From assembly GCA_022482495.1 (NCBI GenBank), contig JAKVPA010000002.1, positions 124,001-188,000 on the forward strand: DNA of 64,000 bases, read 5' to 3'. The stretch is from Sphaerochaeta sp. (lineage in GTDB: Bacteria; Spirochaetota; Spirochaetia; Sphaerochaetales; Sphaerochaetaceae). Both the position numbers and the translations under genes were made by a program. The notes under the pieces were generated by a model. It did no database searches. It was not told the origin of the DNA and was given only the letters and a program-made list of their open reading frames with translations. The first letter of the stretch is position 1, and the number at the start of each line of letters is the position of its first letter. Positions 36,133-50,245 of the stretch are shown here, piece after piece.

Positions 36133-36909
36133 TCAGGCGGGATTCGGCGCTTCGTAGCCAAGCAGTTTGGACAGGTGGCCGCACTCCGTGGTGATCGCCT
36201 TGGTGATGCGGTCCTGTTCGGCGCGGTTGAACCGGAACAGAGGCCAGGTGACGCTCATAGCCGCCACCGTCTTGCCGGTGTAATCCTTCACCGGGGAAGC
36301 GATGCACAGTGTCCCGATCTCATGCTCCTCCTCATCCGTCGCCCAGCCACGCTGGCGCACCAGTTCCAGTTCTTTTCTCAGGGATTCGGCATCCCTGATG
36401 GTGTGGGGCGTGTACGGTTTGAGAATGGTTGAGGAGAGGTAGCGTTGCAACTCTTCCTCCGTCATGCTGGCCAGAAACACCTTGCCGATGCCGGTGCAGT
36501 ACAGCGGGATGGATTTGCCCACCCGGCTGTACATCCGGATCGTATAGGATGATTCTTTTTTCAGCACATAGACGGCGTGGTTGCCTTCCAGAATTCCCAT
36601 GTGGACTGTCTCCCCCAGGCTGTCGCAGAGTTTCTGCGCCACCGGGTTTGCCAGTCCGATCAGATCAATGTGCTCCAGGCCATGGGAACCGACGGAGAAC
36701 ATCTTCAGCGTCAAGGAATATTGGTCGGCAGGGTCACGATACACGTAGCCCAGGCCGATCAACGTATTGAGGAACCGGAGAAGCGTCGCCTTGGGAAGCT
36801 TGGTCTGCTTGGACAACTGCTCCAAATTGATGCTTGTGCAATGTGCCAATGATTCCAGGATCGCGATGGTCCGAACCACTCCGCTGGTTTGTGTCTTTTC
36901 CGGTTCCAT
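36133..36909 (-). CDS. IclR family transcriptional regulator (KdgR-like)
   Basis: The 258-residue protein has an N-terminal winged helix (VVRTIAILESLAHCTSINLEQLSKQTKLPKATLLRFLNTL, about residues 11-50). The C-terminal IclR effector domain (GETVHMGILEGNHAVYVLKKES, then SIPLYCTGIGKVFLA) follows. IclR proteins such as KdgR control KDG and uronate metabolism. It is the last gene of the uxa operon (9 bases after uxaC, GAGGGG SD), so it probably regulates its own operon via the palindromes at 6956, 22395 and 42310. Confidence 0.88.
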   Translation of the reverse strand: MEPEKTQTSGVVRTIAILESLAHCTSINLEQLSKQTKLPKATLLRFLNTLIGLGYVYRDPADQYSLTLKMFSVGSHGLEHIDLIGLANPVAQKLCDSLGETVHMGILEGNHAVYVLKKESSYTIRMYSRVGKSIPLYCTGIGKVFLASMTEEELQRYLSSTILKPYTPHTIRDAESLRKELELVRQRGWATDEEEHEIGTLCIASPVKDYTGKTVAAMSVTWPLFRFNRAEQDRITKAITTECGHLSKLLGYEAPNPA

Positions 36910-36918
36910 ACGATCCCC

Positions 36919-38322
36919 TCAGCCTTCGAAGTACTGCTTCGCGTTGGTGAAGCTGATGTCCTGGACCATCGAACCCAAGGAATCGATGTCGTTGGGAAGC
37001 TCTCCGTTCTCCACCCATGTCCCGATGACGTTGCACAGGATCCTGCGGAAGTACTCGTGGCGCGGGTAGGAAAGGAACGAACGGCTGTCCGTCAGCATGC
37101 CGATGAAGGTGGGGAGCAACCCGACGTTGGCCAGCGTCTTCAGCTGGAACTCCATGCCGTCGCGATGATCGCAGAACCACCACGCCGAGCCGAGCTGCAT
37201 CTTGCCGTGGATGCCTCCTCCCTGGTAGCAACCCATCAGGGTGGCCAGCGGGTAGAAGTCCTTCGGGTTCAGGCTGTACAGGATCGTCTTGGGCACTTCG
37301 TCGGTGATGGACAGGTTCTTCAGGAACGCGCAGAGGTTGGCGGAAAGCTCAACGTCATGCACGGCATCGAACCCGGTGTCCGGCCCCAGCTTGTCGAACA
37401 TCACCTGGTTGCAGTCTCGGATCGAGGAGAAGTGCAGCTGCATGGCGATGTTCCGCTTGGCGTACGCCTTGGCCATCGTCGTCAGGACGAACGTCTTGTA
37501 GGCGTCGATTTCTTCTTCGGAGAGGATGCCACCGTTCATCTTCTTCTGGAAGATGGCGTTGACCTGCTCCACCGGCAGGAAGGTGTGCGGCGCGCTGATC
37601 AACGCATGGTCGCTGGCTTTGCATCCCATTTGGACGAAGAAGTCCAGCCGCTTGATCAATGCGGCGGTGACATCCTCGGCGCTGTTGATCTCCATGCCCG
37701 CCGCCTTTGCAAGCGTGGCGATGTAGTCGGCGAATGTCGCCTTCTCGATCTGGATGGCCTTGTCCGGGCGGTAGGAAGGAATGACCTTGGCGGGACAGTT
37801 CCCTTCGTTTTTGATCAACTGGTGGAAGTGCAGGTCATCGGCGGGATCATCCGTCGTCCCGACGGCGTACACCTTGAACTTCTTCATGATGCCAAAGACG
37901 GACAGCGTCGGATCGGTCTTGAACTTCTCGTTCGCCTCGTCGTAGATCGCCTTGGCGTTCTTGCGGTTCAGTACCTGGTTGATGCCGAAGTATCGCTGCA
38001 ACTCCAGATGGGTCCAGTGGTAGACCGGGTTTCCAATGGAATGTTCCATCGTCTCCGCCCATGCCAGGAACTTGTCGTACGGATCGGCGTCGCCGGTGAT
38101 CAACTTCTCATCGAAACCGTATGCCCGCATCAATCTCCACTTGTAGTGGTCTCCGCCAAGCCACGCGTCGGTGATGGTGGTGAACCGCTTGTCCTCGGCG
38201 ATCTGCCGGGGGATCAAATGGCAGTGGTAATCGAAAATCGGCATATCCTTCGCGTACGTGTTGAAAAGGGTTTCCGCCGTATCGTTGTACAGCATGAAAT
38301 GCTCATCCATGAATTGTCTCAT
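36919..38322 (-). CDS. uxaC: Glucuronate/galacturonate isomerase
   Basis: The 467-residue uronate isomerase of the amidohydrolase superfamily converts D-galacturonate to tagaturonate (or glucuronate to fructuronate). Seen: FDYHCHLIPRQIAEDK near residue 30 (metal-binding HCH), GGDHYKWRLMRAYG, GTTDDPADDL, SYRPDKA, QLHFSSIRDCN and AWWFCDHRDGM. Length is normal. Its ATG overlaps the uxaA stop by 4 bases. Confidence 0.95.
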   Translation of the reverse strand: MRQFMDEHFMLYNDTAETLFNTYAKDMPIFDYHCHLIPRQIAEDKRFTTITDAWLGGDHYKWRLMRAYGFDEKLITGDADPYDKFLAWAETMEHSIGNPVYHWTHLELQRYFGINQVLNRKNAKAIYDEANEKFKTDPTLSVFGIMKKFKVYAVGTTDDPADDLHFHQLIKNEGNCPAKVIPSYRPDKAIQIEKATFADYIATLAKAAGMEINSAEDVTAALIKRLDFFVQMGCKASDHALISAPHTFLPVEQVNAIFQKKMNGGILSEEEIDAYKTFVLTTMAKAYAKRNIAMQLHFSSIRDCNQVMFDKLGPDTGFDAVHDVELSANLCAFLKNLSITDEVPKTILYSLNPKDFYPLATLMGCYQGGGIHGKMQLGSAWWFCDHRDGMEFQLKTLANVGLLPTFIGMLTDSRSFLSYPRHEYFRRILCNVIGTWVENGELPNDIDSLGSMVQDISFTNAKQYFEG

Positions 38323-39827
38323 AGTATTACTCCATCTTTGAACAGTGAGATTTCCGCGTATCCGTTCTGTTCGTTTTTCGTGCGATACGTGCCGTCAGCG
38401 CACTGCCTGACCAGGTCGATCAGATCATCCGTCACCTTCTGGGAATCCTCTTCCAGCACCCGGCCGGCGTTGAAGTCGATCCAATTGGGCTTGTGCTCGG
38501 CAAGCGGGGTGTTGCTGGAGATCTTCAGCGTCGGAACGACGGAACCCAGCGGGGTTCCACGCCCGGTGGTGAACAGGATCATGTGGCAGCCTGCCGCCGA
38601 CAGGGCGGTGGTCGACACGATGTCGTTCCCCGGTCCGGAGAGCAGGTTCAGCCCCGGTGTCACCACACGGGCGCCATAGGGAAGGACATCCTTCACCACG
38701 GCATGCCCGCCTTTCTGCACGCATCCCAGGCTCTTATCCTCCAGCGAACTGATGCCACCGGCCTTGTTGCCCGGCGACGGGTTCTCATAGACCACCTGTC
38801 CGTGTTTGACGAAGTATTCCTTGAACGCGTTGATCAAATCGACCGTCTTGTCGAACACCGCCGGTGAATCGGCGCGGTTCATCAGAATCTGCTCGGCTCC
38901 GAACATCTCCGGCACCTCGGTGAGAATCGCCGTGCCGCCCATGGCGGTCAAGGCGTCGCAGAAGCGGCCGACCAGCGGGTTGGCGGTGATGCCGGAAAGC
39001 CCGTCACTGCCGCCGCACTTCAGGCCGACGACCAGGCGGGACATCGGGACCGGTGTCCGTTTGTCTCCTTTCATCGTCTCGGCCAGCTCGGTCATCAGCT
39101 TCTGCGCAGAGGCGATCTCATCCTCCACGTCCTGGCAGACCAGGAACTTGACCCGGTTGGGATCCACCGGACCGACCAGCTCGCGGAACGACGCCGGGGT
39201 GTTGTTCTCGCACCCCAGGGAAAGCACCAAGACGCCACCGGCATTGGGATGGTGGACCAGATCGGCCAGGATTTTCCGGGTCGCCTCATGGTCGTCGCCC
39301 AGCTGGGAGCATCCGAACGGATGGCTCCAGATGTGGGCTTCCACCCCAAGGTGCTGGTCCGCCCAGGCTACCAGCCGTTCTCCGATGCGGTTGACGCATC
39401 CCACCGTCGGGACGATCCACAGTTCGTTGCGGATGCCGATCCTGCCATCGGAGCGTTGATACGCCTGGATGGTGGGAACGTGCCCTTCGTACCTTTTCTT
39501 CAGTTCGTCAGCCTTGGCCTTGAACGCATCCGCCTGCTTCTCATCGTACCGGTAGGTACCGGACTCCTCCAGCAAGGTGTGCAGGTTGTCCGCATGGACG
39601 TGCCCGCCTTTCTGGATGTCCGTTTTCATCGCTCCGATGGGGTATCCGTACTTGATGACCGGTTCCCCTGCCTTGATCGCTTCCAGCGCGATCTTGTGCC
39701 CCGCCGGAATATCCTCAAGCGCGGTCACCGTAATCCCGTCCACCGTCAAGGTCTCACCCTTGGCGACGGGCTGGATGGCAACGGCGACGCTGTCGTGCGG
39801 CGTAATCCTGAGCAGTTTGTTCTTCAT
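38319..39827 (-). CDS. uxaA: Altronate dehydratase
   Basis: The 502-residue enzyme has an N-terminal SAF domain (about residues 1-95, with HVHADNLHTL) and the UxaA core with conserved Cys-rich blocks (PTVGCVNRIGERLV, SHPFGCSQLGDDH, LSLGCENN, GLKCGGSDGLSGITANPLVG). It dehydrates D-altronate to KDG, the substrate of KdgK. I choose the ATG at 39827, preceded by AGGGGGG. It lies 10 bases after uxaB. Confidence 0.94.
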   Translation of the reverse strand: MKNKLLRITPHDSVAVAIQPVAKGETLTVDGITVTALEDIPAGHKIALEAIKAGEPVIKYGYPIGAMKTDIQKGGHVHADNLHTLLEESGTYRYDEKQADAFKAKADELKKRYEGHVPTIQAYQRSDGRIGIRNELWIVPTVGCVNRIGERLVAWADQHLGVEAHIWSHPFGCSQLGDDHEATRKILADLVHHPNAGGVLVLSLGCENNTPASFRELVGPVDPNRVKFLVCQDVEDEIASAQKLMTELAETMKGDKRTPVPMSRLVVGLKCGGSDGLSGITANPLVGRFCDALTAMGGTAILTEVPEMFGAEQILMNRADSPAVFDKTVDLINAFKEYFVKHGQVVYENPSPGNKAGGISSLEDKSLGCVQKGGHAVVKDVLPYGARVVTPGLNLLSGPGNDIVSTTALSAAGCHMILFTTGRGTPLGSVVPTLKISSNTPLAEHKPNWIDFNAGRVLEEDSQKVTDDLIDLVRQCADGTYRTKNEQNGYAEISLFKDGVIL

Positions 39828-39837
39828 GAACCCCCCT

Positions 39838-41319
39838 TTACTTGACCAGCTGCTGCACGGCCTGCTGCATGCCATGCTTCTGGATGGACGCCAGAGCGGA
39901 GGCTACGGCATCCTCCAGACCGGAAAGCTTGGTCAGATCCTCGCCCCAGAATTCGGTATGAGCCAACGTCTCATGGGCGAGCTTCTTGGGATCGTTGGTC
40001 TTGCCGTGCAGATCCTGGAAGAAGGAGAGCGCGCTCTCATCGTCCTGGATGGCATACGGCTTGCCGTCCCTGAGGCCCGTCATCTGCCGGTCGTGGATGT
40101 CCTTTCCGTTGTAGAAGGTGATCAAGGCGGCGATGCCGAAGGAGAGCACCACAGGGGCCTTGCCGGTCTTCTGGATGTATCCTTTGACGGATGGAAGATC
40201 CCGGGTCTTGAACTTGCTGGTGGAGTTCAGCGTGATGGAGAGCAGCATGTGATAGATGTACGGGTTGTCGAAACGCTCCAGCACATCCTCGGCGTACTTG
40301 GTCAGCATCGCCTTGTCGCCATCCATCGACGGAATGATCTCCTCGAACAGACCCTTGCGGATGAATTTGATCATCACCGGATCCTCGATGCAGTCCCGGA
40401 CACAGTCGAATCCATACAGGAAGCCTGCCGGAACGAACATCGTGTGGGTGCCGTTGAGGATGCGCACCTTGCGGGTGCGGTAGAAGCTCATGTCGTCCGT
40501 CCAGACGACGTTCAGCCCCGCCTTGTCGAACGGAAGCTCGTCCTCGTGGCTGTGCGGCGCCTTGTGGCACTCGATGACCCACAGGTGGAAGATCTCCGCA
40601 GAATCAAGCAGGTTGTCCGTGTAGCCCAGTTCCTGGCAGATCTTCTCCGCCTCGGCCTTGGGATAGCCCGGAACGATCCGGTCGACCAGACTGTTGCAGA
40701 AATCACAGGCATTCTCCAGCCAGTCGGTGAAGCCCTGTTCCAGCTTCCATTCGGAGGCGTACTGCAGGACGATCCGCTTCAGGTTGTCACCATTCTTCTC
40801 GATCAGCTCGCACGGAATCAGGATCACGCCTTTCTTCGGATCCCCATGGAAGAACTGGTAGCGATGATACAGGAACTGGCAGACCTTGGCCGGATAGGAG
40901 AGCGGCGGCTGGTCGGACAGGGAGCAGCCGGAGGTGTAGGAGATTCCCGCCTCGGTGGTGTTGGAGACGATGAACCTCAGCTCCGGGCTTTCCGCGTAGC
41001 CGATGTATTTCCGGTACTCTTCCTCAACGTACGGGTTGAGGCATTCCTTCACGCTGGTGATCAGGCGGTATTCCACCACCGGTTTGCCGTTCTGCACGCC
41101 ACGAAGCACCGTGGTGTACAGCCCTTTCTGCTGGTTGATCATCCCACCCATGCCCCGTTCCAACGGCTGGACCAGCACGATGTTGCCATTGAAATCGGTT
41201 TTCTCGTTGAGATTGTCGAACTGCCAATCAACGAACGCGCGGAGGAAGTTGCCTTCCCCGAACTGGAGGACACGCACCGGTCTGTCTACCGGTTGCTTGA
41301 CATCAAGAATGCTTTTCAT
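39838..41319 (-). CDS. uxaB: Tagaturonate reductase (altronate oxidoreductase)
   Basis: The 493-residue mannitol-dehydrogenase-family enzyme reduces tagaturonate to altronate with NADH. Seen: VLQFGEGNFLRAFVDWQFD at the Rossmann start, SNTTEAGISY, KKGVILIPCELIEKNGD, and RVLNGTHT-like RILNGTHTMFVPAG with the catalytic Lys/His region. The pattern is closer to UxaB than to UxuB. The ATG overlaps the transporter stop by 4 bases. Confidence 0.92.
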   Translation of the reverse strand: MKSILDVKQPVDRPVRVLQFGEGNFLRAFVDWQFDNLNEKTDFNGNIVLVQPLERGMGGMINQQKGLYTTVLRGVQNGKPVVEYRLITSVKECLNPYVEEEYRKYIGYAESPELRFIVSNTTEAGISYTSGCSLSDQPPLSYPAKVCQFLYHRYQFFHGDPKKGVILIPCELIEKNGDNLKRIVLQYASEWKLEQGFTDWLENACDFCNSLVDRIVPGYPKAEAEKICQELGYTDNLLDSAEIFHLWVIECHKAPHSHEDELPFDKAGLNVVWTDDMSFYRTRKVRILNGTHTMFVPAGFLYGFDCVRDCIEDPVMIKFIRKGLFEEIIPSMDGDKAMLTKYAEDVLERFDNPYIYHMLLSITLNSTSKFKTRDLPSVKGYIQKTGKAPVVLSFGIAALITFYNGKDIHDRQMTGLRDGKPYAIQDDESALSFFQDLHGKTNDPKKLAHETLAHTEFWGEDLTKLSGLEDAVASALASIQKHGMQQAVQQLVK

Positions 41320-42317
41320 TTCGCAGACTCCTTTGTATAGTATACGTCTTTCTTCTCTTTTTTACCAAATAAAAGGGAAGCCATGATCGCACAGATTGTT
41401 TGCTGGGAAACAATTCCCAGGATGACGGGAAGCGCCGTCATCGGCGGGAAAAACTCAATGGCGAGCACCAGGGCGGCGCTGATGTTCCGCAGCGACGAAG
41501 CGAACGTCACCGAAATGGCGTCCTCGTGGGAGAAGTGGAACAGCCGGCAGAAACGGTAGGCGATGGGGAAGCCCACCGCGGCGAGGCCGGCGCACAGCAG
41601 GGCGATGGGGATGTACTTCCATGTTGCGTACTGGATCAACTCTTCGGCAATCTGGGAGGTGTTGATCATGACGACCAGCAGCAACCCGACCTTGGAGAAC
41701 GGCTTGAGACACGGGGCGACGGTCTTCGTCACCTTGCCGTGGGTTGCCTGGTGGATCGCTACTCCGATGATCGACGGGATGACCACCATCTTCACCAGGG
41801 AAAGCATCATGCCGGTGGTGTCCATCTGGACGGACTGCCCGGTGAAGATGTGCATGGTCAGCGGCACCAGCAACGGGGCGAACAGCGTGTCCACCAGAAG
41901 GATGGTCAGCGACACGGCCATGTTGCCGCCATAGATGGAGCTCCATACCGTCCCTACCACCGCCGATGGCGTCGCCTTGAGCAGCATGTACCCGGTACGC
42001 AGATCCTTGTCCGATGGAAAGCAGATGGCGCTGCTGGCCCATGCGATGAACGGAAGCAGCAGATTGGCGCAGATCAGGAACACCAGCAGGAACGACGGTC
42101 GCTTCAGCGTCTTGCCGATGTCATTGACGCTGATGGACAGCGCGCCGGTCAGGGTAAGGAACCCGAACAGCCAGTTGACGCTTGGTTTCATCCATGCGAC
42201 GTGACGTCCCAGCAGAAGCCCCAGCAGGACGCCACAAGGAGTGATGACCGGCATCAACCGTTCCAGGATATGGTCCGCCTGCTTCAGGTGTTGGACGGTG
42301 TTCTGAAAATGAAACAT
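41316..42317 (-). CDS. BASS/BART superfamily transporter, probable sugar-acid importer
   Basis: The 333-residue membrane protein has about ten hydrophobic segments and bile-acid:sodium-symporter-like motifs (LKATPSAVVGTVWSSIYGGNMAVS, TFASSLRNISAALVLA). KDG permease KdgT belongs to the same broad superfamily, and the first position in the uxa operon suggests uptake of galacturonate or a keto-deoxy acid. The start is uncertain: ATGs occur at 42329 and 42317, but the promoter -10 box overlaps the first, so 42317 (nearly leaderless) or 42254 are likelier. Confidence 0.75.
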   Translation of the reverse strand: MFHFQNTVQHLKQADHILERLMPVITPCGVLLGLLLGRHVAWMKPSVNWLFGFLTLTGALSISVNDIGKTLKRPSFLLVFLICANLLLPFIAWASSAICFPSDKDLRTGYMLLKATPSAVVGTVWSSIYGGNMAVSLTILLVDTLFAPLLVPLTMHIFTGQSVQMDTTGMMLSLVKMVVIPSIIGVAIHQATHGKVTKTVAPCLKPFSKVGLLLVVMINTSQIAEELIQYATWKYIPIALLCAGLAAVGFPIAYRFCRLFHFSHEDAISVTFASSLRNISAALVLAIEFFPPMTALPVILGIVSQQTICAIMASLLFGKKEKKDVYYTKESAK

Positions 42318-42417: not shown

Positions 42418-45400
42418 GTGCATAAGCGGATCGGCTTTGTATTGGCATCCATCCATACCGGATCATCCAAGGGATTCTGGTCTGACCTCGCCGTCCTGTC
42501 CAAGGAACACGGCGACGCCTTGTTCGTGTTTCCCGGAGGCCGGCTGGAATGCCAGGATGAATTTGAGTTCCTGCGCAACGAAATCTATGATCTTGCCAAC
42601 GCGAAGAACCTGGATGGGCTGGTCAGCTGGGGATCCTCGCTTGGGGGCAGCATCAGCATCTCCCAGGTGGAGAAGTTCCATGACCGGTTCCAGGACCTTC
42701 CGTTCGTCACCTATTCCCTGAAGCGTCCCGGGCACCCCAACATCGGCTTTGACGCCTACGGGGGGATGCAGGCGCTGGTCACCCATATGATCCTCCACCA
42801 TGGCGCCAAACGGTTGGCGTTCCTCCGGGGACCGGGCAACCACGAGGGAGCCCGGCTACGGTACAAGGCGTACGTGGATGCCCTTTCCCAGTGCCATATT
42901 CCGTTTGACGCCAACCTGGTCTCCGATCCGGTGGCGTGGGAGGATGGGGCGAAGGCGCTTTCCCAGTTGGTCGACGAGCGTCATCTGAAACCGGGAAAGG
43001 ATTTCGACACGCTCCTCTGCTCCAGCGACATGATGATGTTCTCCGCCGGTAAGGTGCTGGAAGGAATGGGGATCTCCATTCCTGGAGACCTTCGGTTGGC
43101 CGGATTCAACGACAGTGAGGAAAGCCTGCTGCTGGAGTGCCCCTGCACTACGGTGCGCATGCCGGTGGAGGAGATGGCCTCGCTTTCCTATTATCAATTG
43201 CTTGATTTGATCGACAACCCACGGGGGAGCGACAACGACACGTTGCTGCCCGCTCCGCTGGTCATCCGCCGCTCCTGCGGCTGTCCGGATTCCCTGGGAG
43301 GGGAGGAGATCGCCCGGGCGAAGTTCTCCGGCAACCGGGAGGCGTTCGTCTCCTGGCTGGAGGAACGGTTCCCCGGATACCCGGTCCGGGAGGTGGTCGC
43401 CTCCGGCGATCCCCGGATGCTGGAGAGGACGCTCCGCGCCTACTTGCAGCATGGCGGGGATACGCTGTTGGCTGATGAGGCCATCGGCTGGTATGAACGG
43501 TACATCAGTGGTTCGGAGCAGGGGATTGCACTCCCTGTTGCTCCGTCAGAGGGATTTCGTCGACCGGGAAAGCGCCTACGCCACGCGGATGCAGTCACGG
43601 AGGATCAACTCGCTGAAGAGCGCGCTCCTCTGCTCGCGCAGCATCGTCTCCATCGCGTCCATCTGCACCACCCATCTTCCCGATGTGGGCATCACCGCCT
43701 GCTACCTGGTGCTGCACCAGGATGCCGGGAACCGTCTGGTGGGCGGGTTTGATGAGCACGGTCCGGTCGGACCCGCCGACCTGTCGGAAACAACGTTGCT
43801 TCCCGAATCGGTTTCCGCGTCCTTGACGGAAGGTGTGTACGTGGTGGAGCCGTTGTTCATGGAAAACCAGTCGCTGGGGTACGTCGTGCTGAAGACGGAG
43901 GAGTTCTCCGGCACGTTGATCGAAGACCTGCGCACCTCGCTCTCATCGGCCGTCAAAGGGACGATGTTGCTTGATGCCGCCAACAAGGCGCGGGAGGCCG
44001 CGGAGAAGGCCCAGCGGACCCGCAGCGAGTTCTTCGCCAACATCTCAAACGGTCTGCGGGACCCGTTGGAGACCATCGCCACGCTGTCCCAGGACAGCCC
44101 TCGTTGGGGTGAGATCAAATCCCAGCTTTCCAAAGCGAACCACCTCCTGGATCTCTCGCTCAGCCAGACTGGCGCGTTGGAGCTGGTGGAACACATCACC
44201 ACGCTCCGCCCGGGTCTTCCGGCGGTGAAGGTGGACAGCCGTCTGTTCTCCGAGGTGCTGGAAGCCATCAAGGAAGTGATGGAAGGGGATGGGGAGACCT
44301 GCGCGGAGACGTTCCAGACGACGGTCGAAGGACTCCGTCTGACACTGACCAGCTCCCAGCCGAGGTGGATGGCGTCGATGAACCGCCAGGATCCCGGATT
44401 CAGCCTGGCCGAGCGGATCATGCTGATGGAAGGAGGAACGTTCACCCTGGTGGACAACCGTGTCCAGATGGTGTTCCCCTGGCCGAATCTGCAGAATTCG
44501 GAGACCGTCGGGCGCAAGGACGCCCGGATCTGCTTCGTCGGGGAAGACCCCGCAGCGGTTCCCGCCCTGTTTACTTCTTCGCCGTTCCTGGATGCCAAGA
44601 TGGTGATCAAAGATCTGAAAATGCTGGACGGCTACGGCGCCGTGGCGCTGGACGCCCAGAGTGGTTCGTTCACCATGCAGATGCTCGTCCATGCGATGGA
44701 GACGGATGAGGCCGCCCGAAAGATGCCGATCCTCTGCCTGAACTGCCCGCAGGGCTACGATACGCTTGTCGAGGCGCTGAAGTCCCGCTTCCGCAGTGTC
44801 CTGGGTGGGGCGATCTTCGTCGATGGACCGGTCATTCCTCCGGGGTTGGAGAAACTGGGGATTCCCTCCGATTTCCTGATGCTTCCTTCATTGGATGCTT
44901 TCGCCACCTATGCCAAGGAACGGGCTCCGGCGTTGTTCCTGACCACCAATGTGGACGCCAGCAGGCTCTCTTCCATCCGAAGCGTCTCCCAGACCCCGAT
45001 TTTGGTGATCTCGGAGAAATTCGACAAGGACGCGGTGGAGAAGCTTGCCGCCATCCCCAACCTGGTGATCGCCAACACCTGCGTCTGCGACGTCGGCTCG
45101 TTCATCACCCGGATCATCTCGATCATCGGAGGGGAGGCGATCCTGCCTCCGCTCACCGGGGTGCTGGTCAAACGGGCCATCGCCTATCTGGACAAGAATG
45201 CCACCAGCCAGATCTCACGCTGGCAGCTTGCCGAGGCGATCAACGTCAGTGAGGATTACCTGACCAGGATCTTCCGCAAGGAGCTGGGGATCTCGCCGTG
45301 GGATTATCTGAACCGGTATCGGATCTTCCTGGCGACCAAACTGCTCCGGCAGACATCGCTTACCATCAACGAGGTGGCCAGCGAGAGCGGATTCCAGGAT

Positions 45401-45490
45401 CAGGCTTATTTCTGCAGAGTGTTCAAGAAGACGATGGGAGTCAATCCGGGGAAAATCAGGCGGGGGAAAGGCAGTTCAGAAAGTCGGTAA
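42418..45490 (+). pseudogene. Frameshifted hybrid regulator: LacI-type sensor, degenerate kinase-like domain, AraC HTH
   Basis: Two overlapping frames (from the GTG at 42418 to beyond 43520, and from about 43520 to 45490) make one protein of about 1020 residues if one G of the GGGG run at 43521-43524 is removed. Residues about 1-300 are a LacI/PBP1 sugar-sensor domain without a DNA-binding head. Coiled-coil and kinase-like parts follow; at RSEFFANISNGLRDPLETI the usual phosphoacceptor His of SHEIRTPL is Asn. The C-terminus is an AraC/XylS HTH (WQLAEAINVSEDYLTRIFRK, INEVASESGFQDQAYFCRVF). It probably controlled the downstream importer. The shift may be a real mutation or a sequencing error. 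Confidence 0.75.
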
Positions 45491-45557: not shown

Positions 45558-46553
45558 ATGGGCAAACGGAAAGACAATGCCGCGCAGTTGGATTCGATGG
45601 CAGCCTCGCTGAACAGTGAGGAACGAGCGGCATACCTCGCGTATAAAAAGCATCATCTGACGCGGGAGATCAAGCGGCATCGAAGCATCTATGCGATCAT
45701 GCTGATTCCGCTGGCCTATTACATCCTGTTCAAGTACGTGCCGATCTGGAACGGCCAGATCGCGTTCCGTGATTACATGGCCCTGGATGGCGTGCTGGGG
45801 TCCAAATGGGTTGGATTGGCCAACTTCAAGGATTTCATCCATTCGTTCTACTTTGGTGAGTTGATCCGCAACACGATGATGTACAGCGTGGGAAAACTGG
45901 TGTTCAGCCTGCCGTTGTCCATCATCCTTGCCATCGCGCTGTATGAGTGTGTCCATCCCAAATTGGGGAAAGTGGTGCAGACGCTGGCCTACCTGCCGCA
46001 CTTCCTCTCCTGGGTCATCATGTACGGCATTCTGCTCTCCCTGCTCGCTCCGGGAGACGGCGTGGTCAACGATTTGATCAAAATGGCCGGGGGGAAGCCG
46101 ATCGACTTTCTGACCAGCACCAAGGCGTTCCCTTGGATCGTCATCTTATCCGACGCGTGGAAGGAGATGGGCTGGTCGGCCATCATCTTCATCGCCGCGT
46201 TGATGGGCATCGATCCGTCGCTGTTTGAGGCGGCGATGGTGGAAGGAGCCAACAGCTGGCAACGTGTGCATTACATCACCCTTCCATCGATCCGCCCGGT
46301 GATCGTCGTCGTATTGCTTCTCCGGCTTGGCACCATTTTGGATGCCGGTTTCAACCAGATCTTCATGTTGTACAGCACGCCGGTCCTCAGCGTCGCAGAC
46401 ATCATCGACACCTGGGTGTACCGCCAAGGCCTGCTGGAGTTCCAGTTTGGCCTCGCCACCGCCGTCGGTCTGTTCAAAGGGGTCATCGGACTTCTTCTGA
46501 TCGTCGTCAGCAACAAGCTGACCAAGAAACTCAGCGGGTCGTCGCTGTATTGA
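45558..46553 (+). CDS. ABC polysaccharide transporter permease (LplB family)
   Basis: The 331-residue membrane protein starts with about 40 charged residues, then YAIMLIPLAYYILFKYVPIWNGQIAFRDY, characteristic of LplB/rhamnogalacturonan-type permeases. The EAA loop is FEAAMVEGANSWQRVHYITLP. The ATG at 45558 follows AAGGGAGACTGG; TATACT at 45531-45536 is a possible -10. It is the first gene of the third importer. Confidence 0.9.
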   Translation: MGKRKDNAAQLDSMAASLNSEERAAYLAYKKHHLTREIKRHRSIYAIMLIPLAYYILFKYVPIWNGQIAFRDYMALDGVLGSKWVGLANFKDFIHSFYFGELIRNTMMYSVGKLVFSLPLSIILAIALYECVHPKLGKVVQTLAYLPHFLSWVIMYGILLSLLAPGDGVVNDLIKMAGGKPIDFLTSTKAFPWIVILSDAWKEMGWSAIIFIAALMGIDPSLFEAAMVEGANSWQRVHYITLPSIRPVIVVVLLLRLGTILDAGFNQIFMLYSTPVLSVADIIDTWVYRQGLLEFQFGLATAVGLFKGVIGLLLIVVSNKLTKKLSGSSLY

Positions 46554-46563
46554 GAGGTGAGGC

Positions 46564-47499
46564 ATGGATACCAAGCAGAAAAAAGAAAAACGCACCTCTC
46601 TGAAACCGAAGCTCAATGCGGTGGCCGTCAAGCCCACCGCCGCCGACCATACGTTCAACATCGTCGTCGACGTGTTCCTCTGGCTTCTTTTGTTCATCAT
46701 CGCCATCCCGCTTTGGAGCACCATCACGCTGTCGTTCCGTCCGAACGACTACATTGGTTCCAACCTGCAGGGGATGTTCCTTCCCTTCTGGAAGTGGTCC
46801 TCGGCGGCATACAAGGCGCTTCTGGGCAACCGGGGCTTCCTGCTTGCCTTCTGGAACAGCATCAAGATTCTGATCTTCGGTGTGGCGACGGCATTGCTGC
46901 TTACCATTCCGCTTGCCTACAGTCTTTCCATTCCGACGCTTCCTGGACGGAAGTTCTTCAACTGGTTGATCATCATCCCGTACGTATTCAACGTCGGCAT
47001 GATCCCGACCTACCTGTTGGTCACCGGCATCGGACTGCAGGACCACCTCTCGTCCGTCTACCTGCCGGTCGCCGTCTCGACGTACAACTGCTTGATCATG
47101 CGCTCGTTCTTCGAGGGGATTCCCAATGAGTTGAAGGAATCGGCCCGGATCGATGGCGCCTCGGAGCTCCAGGTGATGATCCGCATCATCCTGCCGCTGT
47201 CCAAGGCCATCATCCTGACCGTCGGCCTGTTCTACGGCGTCTCGTTCTGGAACGACTTCTTCCGCGCCATGCTGTATCTGAACAACAACGACCTGCAGCC
47301 GCTTCCCATTCTGCTCAGGAACATCTTGATCGGCAGCGGCATGAACGAATACGTGGAGGTCAGCGCCTTCGGCGAGGCCCCGATCTCCGCCATCAAGGCG
47401 GCGTCGGTGTTCATGAGCGCCATCCCGATGGTTCTCGCCTATCCGTTCATCCAGAAGTATTTCACCAAGGGCACGTTGCTTGGCTCCGTCAAGGGCTGA
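46564..47499 (+). CDS. ABC polysaccharide transporter permease (YtcP family)
   Basis: The 311-residue partner permease has six membrane segments; IPLWSTITLSFRPNDYIGSN and the EAA loop KESARIDGASELQVMIRIILP are typical of YtcP. It starts 10 bases after the LplB-type gene with GAGGTGAGGC upstream. Confidence 0.9.
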   Translation: MDTKQKKEKRTSLKPKLNAVAVKPTAADHTFNIVVDVFLWLLLFIIAIPLWSTITLSFRPNDYIGSNLQGMFLPFWKWSSAAYKALLGNRGFLLAFWNSIKILIFGVATALLLTIPLAYSLSIPTLPGRKFFNWLIIIPYVFNVGMIPTYLLVTGIGLQDHLSSVYLPVAVSTYNCLIMRSFFEGIPNELKESARIDGASELQVMIRIILPLSKAIILTVGLFYGVSFWNDFFRAMLYLNNNDLQPLPILLRNILIGSGMNEYVEVSAFGEAPISAIKAASVFMSAIPMVLAYPFIQKYFTKGTLLGSVKG

Positions 47500-47543
47500 G
47501 CATGATGATATCGAATTGAGGTAATCAGAAAGAGGAGGATTAC

Positions 47544-49121
47544 ATGAAGAAAACATTGTTGGTTCTGTTGATCCTGACCTGCTTGGTCGGCGCGCTGTTT
47601 GCGCAGGCGACCAGTGAGCAGGCCGCCCCGGCAGCTCCTGCCAAGGAAGAGCCGGTGACGATTGATCTGTGGTATGGCGCGGCGATCACCGAAGCGGGAC
47701 CCCCACCTGATGATTGGGTAGGCTATCAGATCATCAAGGACAAGCTGAACATCAATCTGAAGCTGACGGCGCTTCCCTCTGCGGAAAACGACCAGGATGT
47801 GAAGATTCAGGCTGCCGGCGCGGCGAACAACCTGCCGGATCTGTTCATGGTGCGCCGTGACACGTTGATGCGTCTGGTCAAGCAGGGCTTGGTCGCCCCG
47901 GTGGATGACATGTATGCCAAGATGCCGGTCCGCACCGCAAAGCACTACGATGCCTCCAGCATCCAGAACACCACCGTCAACGGCCATTCCTATGGCTTTG
48001 CCGACCCGGGCTCCATCGCCAAGAACGAAGGTCTTTTGATCCGCAAGGACTGGCTGGACAAGCTTGGTCTGGCTGTTCCCAAGACGCTGGATGACCTGTA
48101 CAACGTCATGGTTGCGTTCACCAAGAACGACCCTGACGGGAACGGAAAGAACGACACCTACGGCTATGGCGCCTTCCAGGAGATCAACAACTACGAAGAG
48201 TGGCCTGGCCGTCGTCTTGAGCCGATCCTTGGCGCCTTCGGCGTGGAAGGAACCTGGGACATGACCAAAGCCAACGCTGGCCTGAACATCCTCAAGCCGG
48301 AGTTCTACGACGCCATGGTCTTCATCAAGAAGATCCAGGACGCTGGTGTGATCGATCCCAACTGGCTGGCCTACAAGAAGGATGACTTCCGCGCTGCGTG
48401 GAAGCAGGGCCGGTTCGGCATCATGCGGGAACAGAACGCCGCGTACGCCGCGACTTCCAACTACGCACCGTTTGACAAGAACTTCCCCAACGGCGAATGG
48501 ATCGTCATTGATCCGCCGGTAGGGCCTACGGGCAAGGCTTCCATCGGTCCGTACACAGTGAACTACCGCATCTACGCGGTCAGCGCCAAGGCGGCGAAAG
48601 CCGGCAAGTTGGACAAGATCGCCCAGTTGCTGGAGTGGATGGCTTCCGATGAGGGCTACTATCTGCTCGGATGGGGTGTCGAAGGCGTGAACTACACCAA
48701 AGACGCCAATGGTATTCCTGTCGCTGACGGAGTGGACAAAGATCTGGCGTTCTCCGGTCCGAAAGGCCAGACGGTCACCCAGTTGCGCAACATGGTGTTC
48801 TACAATGGTGACATCGAGCTTGGCAGCCGGTACCCGACCTACCAGACGGCGACCAGCGGCAAGACGATGAGCGCGTTGACGGTATTGCGTGACATGCAGA
48901 GCCGCAAGTGGACGCCGGCCATCGGTTCCGACATGCTGCCCATTCCCAACGCAGACCTGAAGCGCTTCTACGAACAGGGGCTCGCTGAGTTCATCACCGG
49001 CAAGCGCGAGCTTACCAAGGCGAACTGGGATGCGTGGATCGCTGAGTTCAAGAAGCAGGGCGGCCAGGCGTGGAATGACGCCGGTGTGCAGTACGCCCAG
49101 GACAACGATCTGTTGGTGTGA
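47544..49121 (+). CDS. Extracellular solute-binding protein (LipO-like, oligosaccharide)
   Basis: The 525-residue exported protein has a signal peptide (KKTLLVLLILTCLVGALFA). The large size and segments such as LWYGAAITEAGPPPDDW, DLFMVRRDTLMRLVKQG and TKNDPDGNGKNDTYGYG match LipO-type proteins that serve LplB/YtcP permeases. In Bacillus this type imports rhamnogalacturonan fragments, which fits the GH105 gene next door. AGGAGG lies 7 bases before the ATG. A strong terminator follows. Confidence 0.9.
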   Translation: MKKTLLVLLILTCLVGALFAQATSEQAAPAAPAKEEPVTIDLWYGAAITEAGPPPDDWVGYQIIKDKLNINLKLTALPSAENDQDVKIQAAGAANNLPDLFMVRRDTLMRLVKQGLVAPVDDMYAKMPVRTAKHYDASSIQNTTVNGHSYGFADPGSIAKNEGLLIRKDWLDKLGLAVPKTLDDLYNVMVAFTKNDPDGNGKNDTYGYGAFQEINNYEEWPGRRLEPILGAFGVEGTWDMTKANAGLNILKPEFYDAMVFIKKIQDAGVIDPNWLAYKKDDFRAAWKQGRFGIMREQNAAYAATSNYAPFDKNFPNGEWIVIDPPVGPTGKASIGPYTVNYRIYAVSAKAAKAGKLDKIAQLLEWMASDEGYYLLGWGVEGVNYTKDANGIPVADGVDKDLAFSGPKGQTVTQLRNMVFYNGDIELGSRYPTYQTATSGKTMSALTVLRDMQSRKWTPAIGSDMLPIPNADLKRFYEQGLAEFITGKRELTKANWDAWIAEFKKQGGQAWNDAGVQYAQDNDLLV

Positions 49122-49131
49122 TAATCTATCT

Positions 49132-49167
49132 ATCCGGCCATCCGTAATGATGGCCGGATCCTTTTTT
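49132..49167 (+). terminator. Rho-independent terminator between the importer and GH105 genes
   Basis: ATCCGGCCATC (49132-49142) pairs perfectly with GATGGCCGGAT (49149-49159), followed by CCTTTTTTC. It ends the importer transcript or attenuates read-through into the hydrolase gene, 14 bases ahead of the GH105 start. Confidence 0.88.
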
Positions 49168-49180
49168 CAGGAAGAAATCA

Positions 49181-50245
49181 ATGCACGAACCGCTTTCCCT
49201 CCAGATGGCCCGCCACGTCCAGGAAATCTATCGTCCTGGCATGATGAAGTGGCATTACGAACATGGATTGGTCATTATGGCCAGCCTTGCGGCAGACCCT
49301 GCTCTGTTTTCATGGGCGTACCAGCTGTATGACCCGATGATCGCCCAGGATGGCACGATCGCCACGTATCGGGAAGGTGAGTTCAATTTGGATCAGATCA
49401 ATGCCGGGCGGAACCTGTTCACGTTCTACGAGAAAACGGGAGAACAACGGTTCATCGCCGCCTCGCGCATCCTGCGTGACCAGCTTGCCCACCAGCCCCG
49501 GACAAAGAGCGGTGTGTTCTGGCACAAGGAAATTTATCCGTGGCAGATCTGGCTGGACGGCCAGTACATGGAAGGTCCGTTCTACGCCCAGTACAGCCAA
49601 TTCACCAATGATACCCAGGGAATGGATGATGTTGTCACCCAGTTGGTCACCACGTTCCATACGCTCCGCGACCCCAAGACGGGATTGTTGTATCATGCCT
49701 ACGACGAATCCCGCGGGATGCGCTGGTCCGACCCGAAGACCGGCCTTTCCCCCCATTTCTGGGGACGCGCCATGGGATGGTATGGGATGGCCGTCCTGGA
49801 TGTGCTGGATTACCTTCCCAAGGATCATCCGGGACGAAGCGCCCTGGGGGATATCATCCGTTCCTACATCAGTGCCATCCGGAAGGTGCAGGATCCAGAG
49901 AGCGGAATGTGGTACCAGGTGCTGGACCAAGGGAAGAGGGAAGGCAACTATCTGGAGACCAGCGCCACCAGCATGTTCGTCACCATTCTGCTTAAAGCCC
50001 GGAGACTGGGCATCACCACCGACCCCACCGACAAGGATGCCGCGCTGAAAGCCTTCAACGGCATGAAACAGCGCTACCTGGCAAACGACCTGCGCCTGGG
50101 GGGCATCTGCTCCGTGGCAGGACTCGGCGGCAACCCATGCCGTGACGGCTCCTTCTCCTACTACATCAGCGAACCCATCGCCACCGATGACTTCAAAGGC
50201 GTCGGCCCCTTCATCCTTGCCTGCCTGGAAGTGGAGAGGGCGTAG
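49181..50245 (+). CDS. Glycoside hydrolase family 88/105, unsaturated rhamnogalacturonyl hydrolase-like
   Basis: The 354-residue protein is a cytoplasmic (alpha/alpha)6 barrel of the YteR/YesR type. The WLDGQYMEGPFYAQYSQ block carries the catalytic Asp. HAYDESRGMRWSDP, FWGRAMGWYGMAVLDVLDYLP and GNYLETSATSMFV are also diagnostic. It hydrates the C4-C5 double bond of unsaturated galacturonyl units made by pectate or rhamnogalacturonan lyases. AGGAAG precedes the ATG by 7 bases. Confidence 0.92.
   Translation: MHEPLSLQMARHVQEIYRPGMMKWHYEHGLVIMASLAADPALFSWAYQLYDPMIAQDGTIATYREGEFNLDQINAGRNLFTFYEKTGEQRFIAASRILRDQLAHQPRTKSGVFWHKEIYPWQIWLDGQYMEGPFYAQYSQFTNDTQGMDDVVTQLVTTFHTLRDPKTGLLYHAYDESRGMRWSDPKTGLSPHFWGRAMGWYGMAVLDVLDYLPKDHPGRSALGDIIRSYISAIRKVQDPESGMWYQVLDQGKREGNYLETSATSMFVTILLKARRLGITTDPTDKDAALKAFNGMKQRYLANDLRLGGICSVAGLGGNPCRDGSFSYYISEPIATDDFKGVGPFILACLEVERA

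Follow-up and report, generated by a model that had tools for sequence, protein, structure and literature searches.

A split gene for a LacI-type, histidine-kinase-like and AraC-type regulator in Sphaerochaeta: very probably an assembly indel error in an intact spirochaete gene

In the 64 kb stretch of Sphaerochaeta DNA analysed here (the window), the gene for a large regulator is divided between two reading frames. We conclude that the regulator is very probably encoded by one intact gene in the living organism and that the break, at ~43500–43525, is an indel error of the assembly. The cut is attributed to a sequence error because breaks of the same kind divide essential genes elsewhere on this contig, genes which are intact in relatives. 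In its intact form the regulator is widespread among spirochaetes and is usually encoded beside hexuronate and pectin genes.

The two halves of the gene lie on the forward strand in different frames, the sensor in frame 0 and the output part in frame +1, and the change occurs near a GGGG run (43521–43524). ORF A (42418–43752; 444 residues, GTG start) is read in frame 0 and is out of frame past ~43525. The open stretch in frame +1 spans 43211–45490 (759 codons); its homologous part begins at ~43523 and the ORF is listed from the ATG at 43451. Third-codon-position GC moves from frame 0 to frame +1 at ~43500–43540, a codon-score scan placed the frame switch at 43526, with the old frame remaining open for ~224 nt beyond the shift, and in the homologue alignment frame 0 was followed up to the connector helix and frame +1 from ~43523. 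The preliminary description had joined the halves by skipping one G of the GGGG run. The frame break itself is borne out by the GC, alignment and codon-score results; its exact site can be resolved only to ~43500–43525, within which the run is a plausible position and one of several possible ones. The joined linker of the window copy would have ~30 residues, compared with 32 in two congeners and 36–37 in most other members of the alignment, and owing to this deficit of ~2 residues relative to the congeners the GGGG run is not the sole possible shift site.

An imperfect inverted repeat detected by folding (43514–43545) encloses the G run and is possibly an indel hotspot. The best 36 nt hairpin over the break has an energy of -18.6 kcal/mol, the 5% point of 150 random 120 nt stretches being -18.2. 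An in-frame TTG (43526) sits in the loop of this repeat. Large ORF overlaps in the window were also considered as signs of many frameshifts; this was rejected after nine ORFs had been tested, the overlapping neighbours belonging to different families and the starts being over-long.

Homologues were gathered at 99 loci, 19 from one set of relatives and a further 80 from named genomes, the best 80 among 205 relatives identified; six of the loci were duplicates. The preliminary description had allowed that the homologues might naturally be two separate genes. The comparison gave the opposite result: both halves formed a single ORF in all loci that held both (94/94), and the remaining five of the 99 end at contig ends. 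The stronger statement that no homologue is ever split holds for these 94 loci of the first set but fails for two homologues found later, in genomes G338 and G359, which are split at long tracts (see below).

The alignment comprised 86 homologues and the window copy (87 rows), seven truncated loci and the six duplicates having been left out. At columns conserved at 97% or more, the window copy agreed in 25/25 cases in the first half and 47/48 in the second; at columns conserved at 90% or more, the figures were 41/43 and 71/73. The GC3 values of the halves are 0.78 and 0.81. Both halves are thus well conserved, as had been judged from the sequence, and the lack of decay in the window copy means that the break is either recent or not real. 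The source genome (G000) has one copy of the regulator gene; of 13 further matches of the second half in this genome, 12 concern the AraC-type end and one is weak and partial. Across a sample of the phylum, a match at E 1e-20 was obtained in 23 of 296 genomes, G000 included.

Further frame breaks were sought in a sample of the same genome of 398,122 bases, composed of 238 kb of the contig of the window (C2) and 160 kb of a second contig (C1). Outside the window, the stricter version of a coding-frame-switch scan, with a simulated sensitivity of 112/200, yielded 14 candidates, of which C2 has 13 and C1 one, and the 64 kb window itself holds only one; this uneven distribution counts against the error reading. 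The first version of the scan had given 20 candidates outside the window, some apparently arising from antisense coding, and a self-trained version gave 12. In relatives the scan gave one candidate in 400 kb, a weak control with simulated sensitivities of 14/150 and 29/150. For ribonucleotide reductase, topoisomerase IV A, phosphoglycerate mutase, phosphoglucose isomerase (PGI), a carbon–nitrogen hydrolase, a TraB-type protein and a DUF6062 protein, Pfam placed a single domain on both sides of the frame change; in a GH3 enzyme the two sides carry successive domains. In the other six scan candidates a family match was confined to one side or lacking altogether.

Four of the split genes were compared with those of relatives. 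PGI, ribonucleotide reductase and iPGM are split on C2, and no second copy of any of them exceeds the family cut-off in G000; for the topoisomerase IV A gene, likewise split on C2, there is an intact paralogue elsewhere on this contig. Each of the four is one open frame in 5/5 relatives searched, and the halves tile the intact genes of the relatives. At the C2 loci L118, L119, L121, L123, L124, L125 and L129, core genes including that for HSP90 are split, mostly by +1.

A neutral set of 444 query ORFs was taken from a single-contig relative (G024; 600 kb). With these queries a frame break was found in 10 of the 102 covered genes of C2 (window included), compared with 0/73 in the congeners G001 and G002 (Fisher p 0.0056). 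The coverage of C2 was 40,048 residues, corresponding to ~1 break per 12 kb of coding DNA, and the result concerns C2, as the C1 sample contained no covered genes. A smaller neutral set from G024, later enlarged, had given 5/38 broken genes in G000 versus 0/37 in the congeners. A comparison based on mutual ORFs (13/80 breaks in G000 and 5/71 in G001 and G002) was set aside, its queries having included antisense ORFs and split ORFs of G000 itself. The direction of the shift was +1, as in the window, in 12/14 of the scan candidates and 7/10 of the homology-based breaks.

At ~1 break per 12 kb, simple arithmetic gives a 3 kb gene a chance of ~1 in 4 of being hit. A bacterium would not be expected to withstand the joint loss of these core genes, and we therefore infer that most of the breaks on C2 must be errors. 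The comparison bears directly on indel errors in the core genes, and an error of this kind in the regulator gene would follow by analogy with them. Gene-splitting indels are described for long-read assemblies, in which they are reduced by frameshift-aware correction, in excerpts of two articles (PMC8103633; PMC12007338). The putative indel errors of G000 are like these in splitting genes.

The preliminary description had proposed four causes of the break, among which sequencing or assembly error is strongly favoured by the breaks in core genes on C2. The strongest competitor is a real, recent loss-of-function mutation, either the gain of one base or a small deletion within the fast-evolving linker, which would leave this lineage with a fragment of the sensor and a separate, orphaned output fragment. 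As the regulator gene is non-essential, it could alone be truly broken, and a run of only four Gs is a weak homopolymer target for an error. The short linker could likewise reflect a real small deletion, which would also explain the frame; linker lengths across the family range from 25 to 40 residues between the anchors used. Inverted repeats are a known kind of indel hotspot, and one spans the site. A mutation of this kind would nevertheless have to coincide with a contig on which many core genes are broken alike, with 0/73 genes broken in congeners, and with a window copy showing no sign of decay, and we regard it as unlikely. Phase variation, in which slippage at GGGG would turn the regulator on and off, is suggested by the poly-G and poly-C tracts that break homologues in another spirochaete genus (G13 in G338 and C14 in G359); these later-found split homologues also weigh against the error reading. 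Phase-variation tracts are, however, usually far longer than four Gs, no run of seven or more Gs or Cs occurs within the 64 kb window and G000 has only two positions matching ten Gs versus 237–1304 in that genus, so that phase variation of the window gene is very improbable.

Two explanations would make the split functional, and to each we give next to no weight. Programmed +1 ribosomal frameshifting could join the halves during translation: the old frame stays open past the site, the second frame is well kept and a 101 nt stretch across the site folds somewhat better than shuffled sequences (z -1.74, 10/200 shuffles being as stable). The 100 nt and 60 nt of RNA that follow the site, however, are less stable when folded than the majority of shuffled sequences (z +1.37 and +1.15), no stop and no obvious pausing codon or element was seen at the break on inspection of the sequence, and no shift is needed in 94/94 homologue loci. 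The gene could instead yield two proteins, the sensor alone and an output half translated from an internal start such as TTG 43526, seven nucleotides upstream of which a GGAG (43515–43518) was noted by inspection; the second half is moreover predicted to fold well alone (pLDDT 91). Such an organization would sever the sensor from the output and is found in 0/94 loci, and purine stretches preceding a start codon are readily met by chance. An assembly error in an intact gene is thus the explanation retained.

The long tracts mentioned above occur in the spirochaete genus g72. In G338 (L227/L244) a G13 tract splits the regulator homologue in the linker between sensor and output that is also affected in the window copy, and in G359 (L246/L255) the split falls at a C14 tract close to residue 777, in the receiver-like region; G398 (L242) has C8 at about the place of the C14 tract and one open frame. 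Positions matching ten Gs number 237 in G338, 304 in G398, 550 in G359 and 1304 in G427, compared with 0–2 in G000, G001 and G002, a tract of n bases being counted n-9 times. Of the tracts of G338 and G398, 24 were examined: long open frames contained some of them but not others, and the longest flanking frames agreed in 11. These tracts may have the look of contingency tracts, which the GGGG of the window does not. Together they may represent an exceptionally rich collection of contingency loci, or else a poly-G sequencing artefact. That the window break is an error and the regulator family is nevertheless truly phase-variable in g72 is a tentative proposal, which we consider somewhat doubtful; if it were true, the use of pectin in this genus would be switched cell by cell at the master regulator. 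No description of this tract-rich genus was found among the literature matches listed.

The preliminary description had recognized a LacI-type sensor, a histidine-kinase-like region and an AraC HTH, and this assignment is upheld, the outer parts by Pfam (Peripla_BP_3 and HTH_18) and the kinase-like fold by predicted structure. The intact protein would be a cytoplasmic single chain composed of a LacI-type sensor, a connector, a GAF-like domain, a DHp-CA unit devoid of catalytic residues, a receiver-like part and an AraC domain. The LacI-type ligand-binding domain occupies residues 126–287 of ORF A (Peripla_BP_3; E 5e-22) and is accompanied by a helical connector; Pfam gave no match to a LacI HTH, the protein beginning at the LacI-type core domain. 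A model of the homologue L041 (S. halotolerans, 1059 residues, mean pLDDT 88.7) matches CelR and LacI-family core structures. In the model of the second half of the window protein (mean pLDDT 91), a GAF-like domain (43577–43981; model residues 19–153) is followed by a long helix and a DHp-like helical hairpin (43910–44167; residues 130–215), a degenerate HATPase-like (CA) domain (44180–44488; residues 220–322) and two receiver-like alpha/beta segments (44525–45127; residues 335–434 and 451–535) assigned by the order of their elements. The AraC-type DNA-binding domain (45149–45472; HTH_18, E 4.3e-23) ends the chain. All of these parts are encoded on the forward strand. With pTM values of 0.57–0.58, the relative placement of the domains is uncertain.

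The best structure matches of the second half were to DHp-CA (Z 12.6), GAF (Z 11.8) and AraC DNA-binding (Z 11.7) domains. Long helices alone can reach Z 13, and the DHp assignment therefore draws in addition on the CA part and on the residues surrounding the H-box. No receiver appeared in the list of matches for the second half, a list whose gaps prove nothing. Pfam found no kinase domain in the window protein; when it was applied to 18 members of the family, weak HisKA matches were obtained in 5/18 (best E 1.5e-4) and HTH_18 in 18/18. The highest 19-residue Kyte–Doolittle mean is 1.83 in the window protein and 1.33–1.55 in three relatives, and on hydropathy no membrane segment was found. No family-specific model was found in Pfam or NCBIfam (for the second half, among the best 25 of 46 NCBIfam matches), and the literature matches listed contained no description of the regulator family.

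The presumed phosphoacceptor histidine is replaced by Asn in the window protein (SNGLRDPL, 44045–44068), as had been read correctly before. As a change specific to the window copy this substitution was rejected, since 85 of the 87 aligned rows have no His at the site: the residues are E in 46 rows, S in 19, D in 11, N in seven, H in two, A in one and G in one. L093 and L095 (ALEHELYDPL) are the only two rows with His. At what we take to be the N-box and G1 motifs of the alignment, the expected residues are absent as conserved features of the family. The inferred receiver Asp site, in segments placed by element order only, has D in 37/87 rows and in the window copy; receivers lacking this Asp are described in an excerpt of PMC4395418. 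From the phosphoacceptor site and the N-box and G1 motifs, the whole family, beyond the window copy, appears to be kinase-dead. Two farther relatives, L230 (957–4703) and L232 (518–4414), combine a LacI-type sensor with canonical HisKA, HATPase and receiver domains. These spirochaete proteins are apparently active by their motifs, and at the end of L232 a SpoIIE-type phosphatase domain takes the place of AraC. Since such relatives pair a sensor of this type with kinase motifs that are intact, the way in which a switch of this kind loses its chemistry could be tested.

In the HTCS proteins of Bacteroides the output is an AraC DNA-binding domain. According to excerpts of PMC11253607, these proteins carry a sensor, a histidine-kinase-like DHp-CA unit and a receiver in one chain and control the use of polysaccharides. 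The spirochaete regulator similarly has kinase-like, receiver-like (by element order) and AraC parts in one chain, as seen in the single ORFs of relatives; it differs in having a LacI-type sensor rather than a membrane sensor and no membrane segment, and in lacking the phosphoacceptor His in 85/87 rows and the N-box and G1 signatures. It shares the C-terminal AraC-type double HTH with AraC/XylS regulators and the LacI-type core domain with LacI/GalR repressors, but not the N-terminal HTH of the latter. Escherichia coli XylR is built from a LacI-like sensor and an AraC HTH, and the regulator resembles it in joining a LacI-type ligand domain to an AraC-type output in one cytoplasmic chain, whereas ~600 residues of GAF, kinase-like and receiver-like structure lie between its sensor and output; apo XylR (4fe4) ranked 38th when structures were searched with the output half. 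DivL, which has a kinase fold without the usual phosphoacceptor His, matches the model of the second half with a Z of 12.0 and an r.m.s.d. of 3.0 over 169 aligned residues. Catalytically dead histidine kinases such as DivL and ChrS signal via separate partners. The regulator likewise has a kinase fold without this His, but its output domain is on the same chain. The ChrS pseudokinase is described in an excerpt of PMC9491836.

The earlier placement of the regulator directly upstream of a pectin-type importer was confirmed: on the forward strand it is followed by two ABC importer permeases (45558–46553 and 46564–47499), a binding protein (47544–49121) and a GH88-family hydrolase (49181–50245), which complete a block at 45558–50245. 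A divergent hexuronate cluster on the reverse strand (36133–42317) contains genes for an IclR-type regulator (36133–36909), UxaC (36919–38322), altronate dehydratase (38319–39872), a mannitol-dehydrogenase-type reductase that is likely to be UxaB (39838–41319) and an SBF-type transporter (41316–42317). At least one gene of this neighbourhood is present in 74 of the 80 loci from the best 80 of 205 relatives. An LplB-like permease is found within 2.5 kb downstream in 53 of the 69 loci whose flank is long enough; on the upstream side, 41 of 61 loci have divergent uxa or SBF genes no farther than 1.5 kb away, and 34 of 53 have both.

This conserved neighbourhood supports a role as regulator of hexuronate and pectin use, in which the ligand, the target promoters and the sign of regulation are putative. 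From its place, the regulator would sense an intracellular breakdown product of pectin or hexuronate and would control the adjoining importer and hydrolase genes as well as the divergent uxa genes. The lost motifs suggest that the kinase-like part would relay the signal as a dimeric conformational change and not by phosphotransfer.

Recognition of the break as a probable error keeps an assembly artefact from being taken for phase variation or recoding. Frame breaks on C2 should not be interpreted without reads, and annotation should allow for indel errors. What is left is a family with a hybrid two-component architecture which has shed its phosphotransfer motifs and probably works as a one-component regulator, linked across the spirochaetes to pectin and hexuronate genes.
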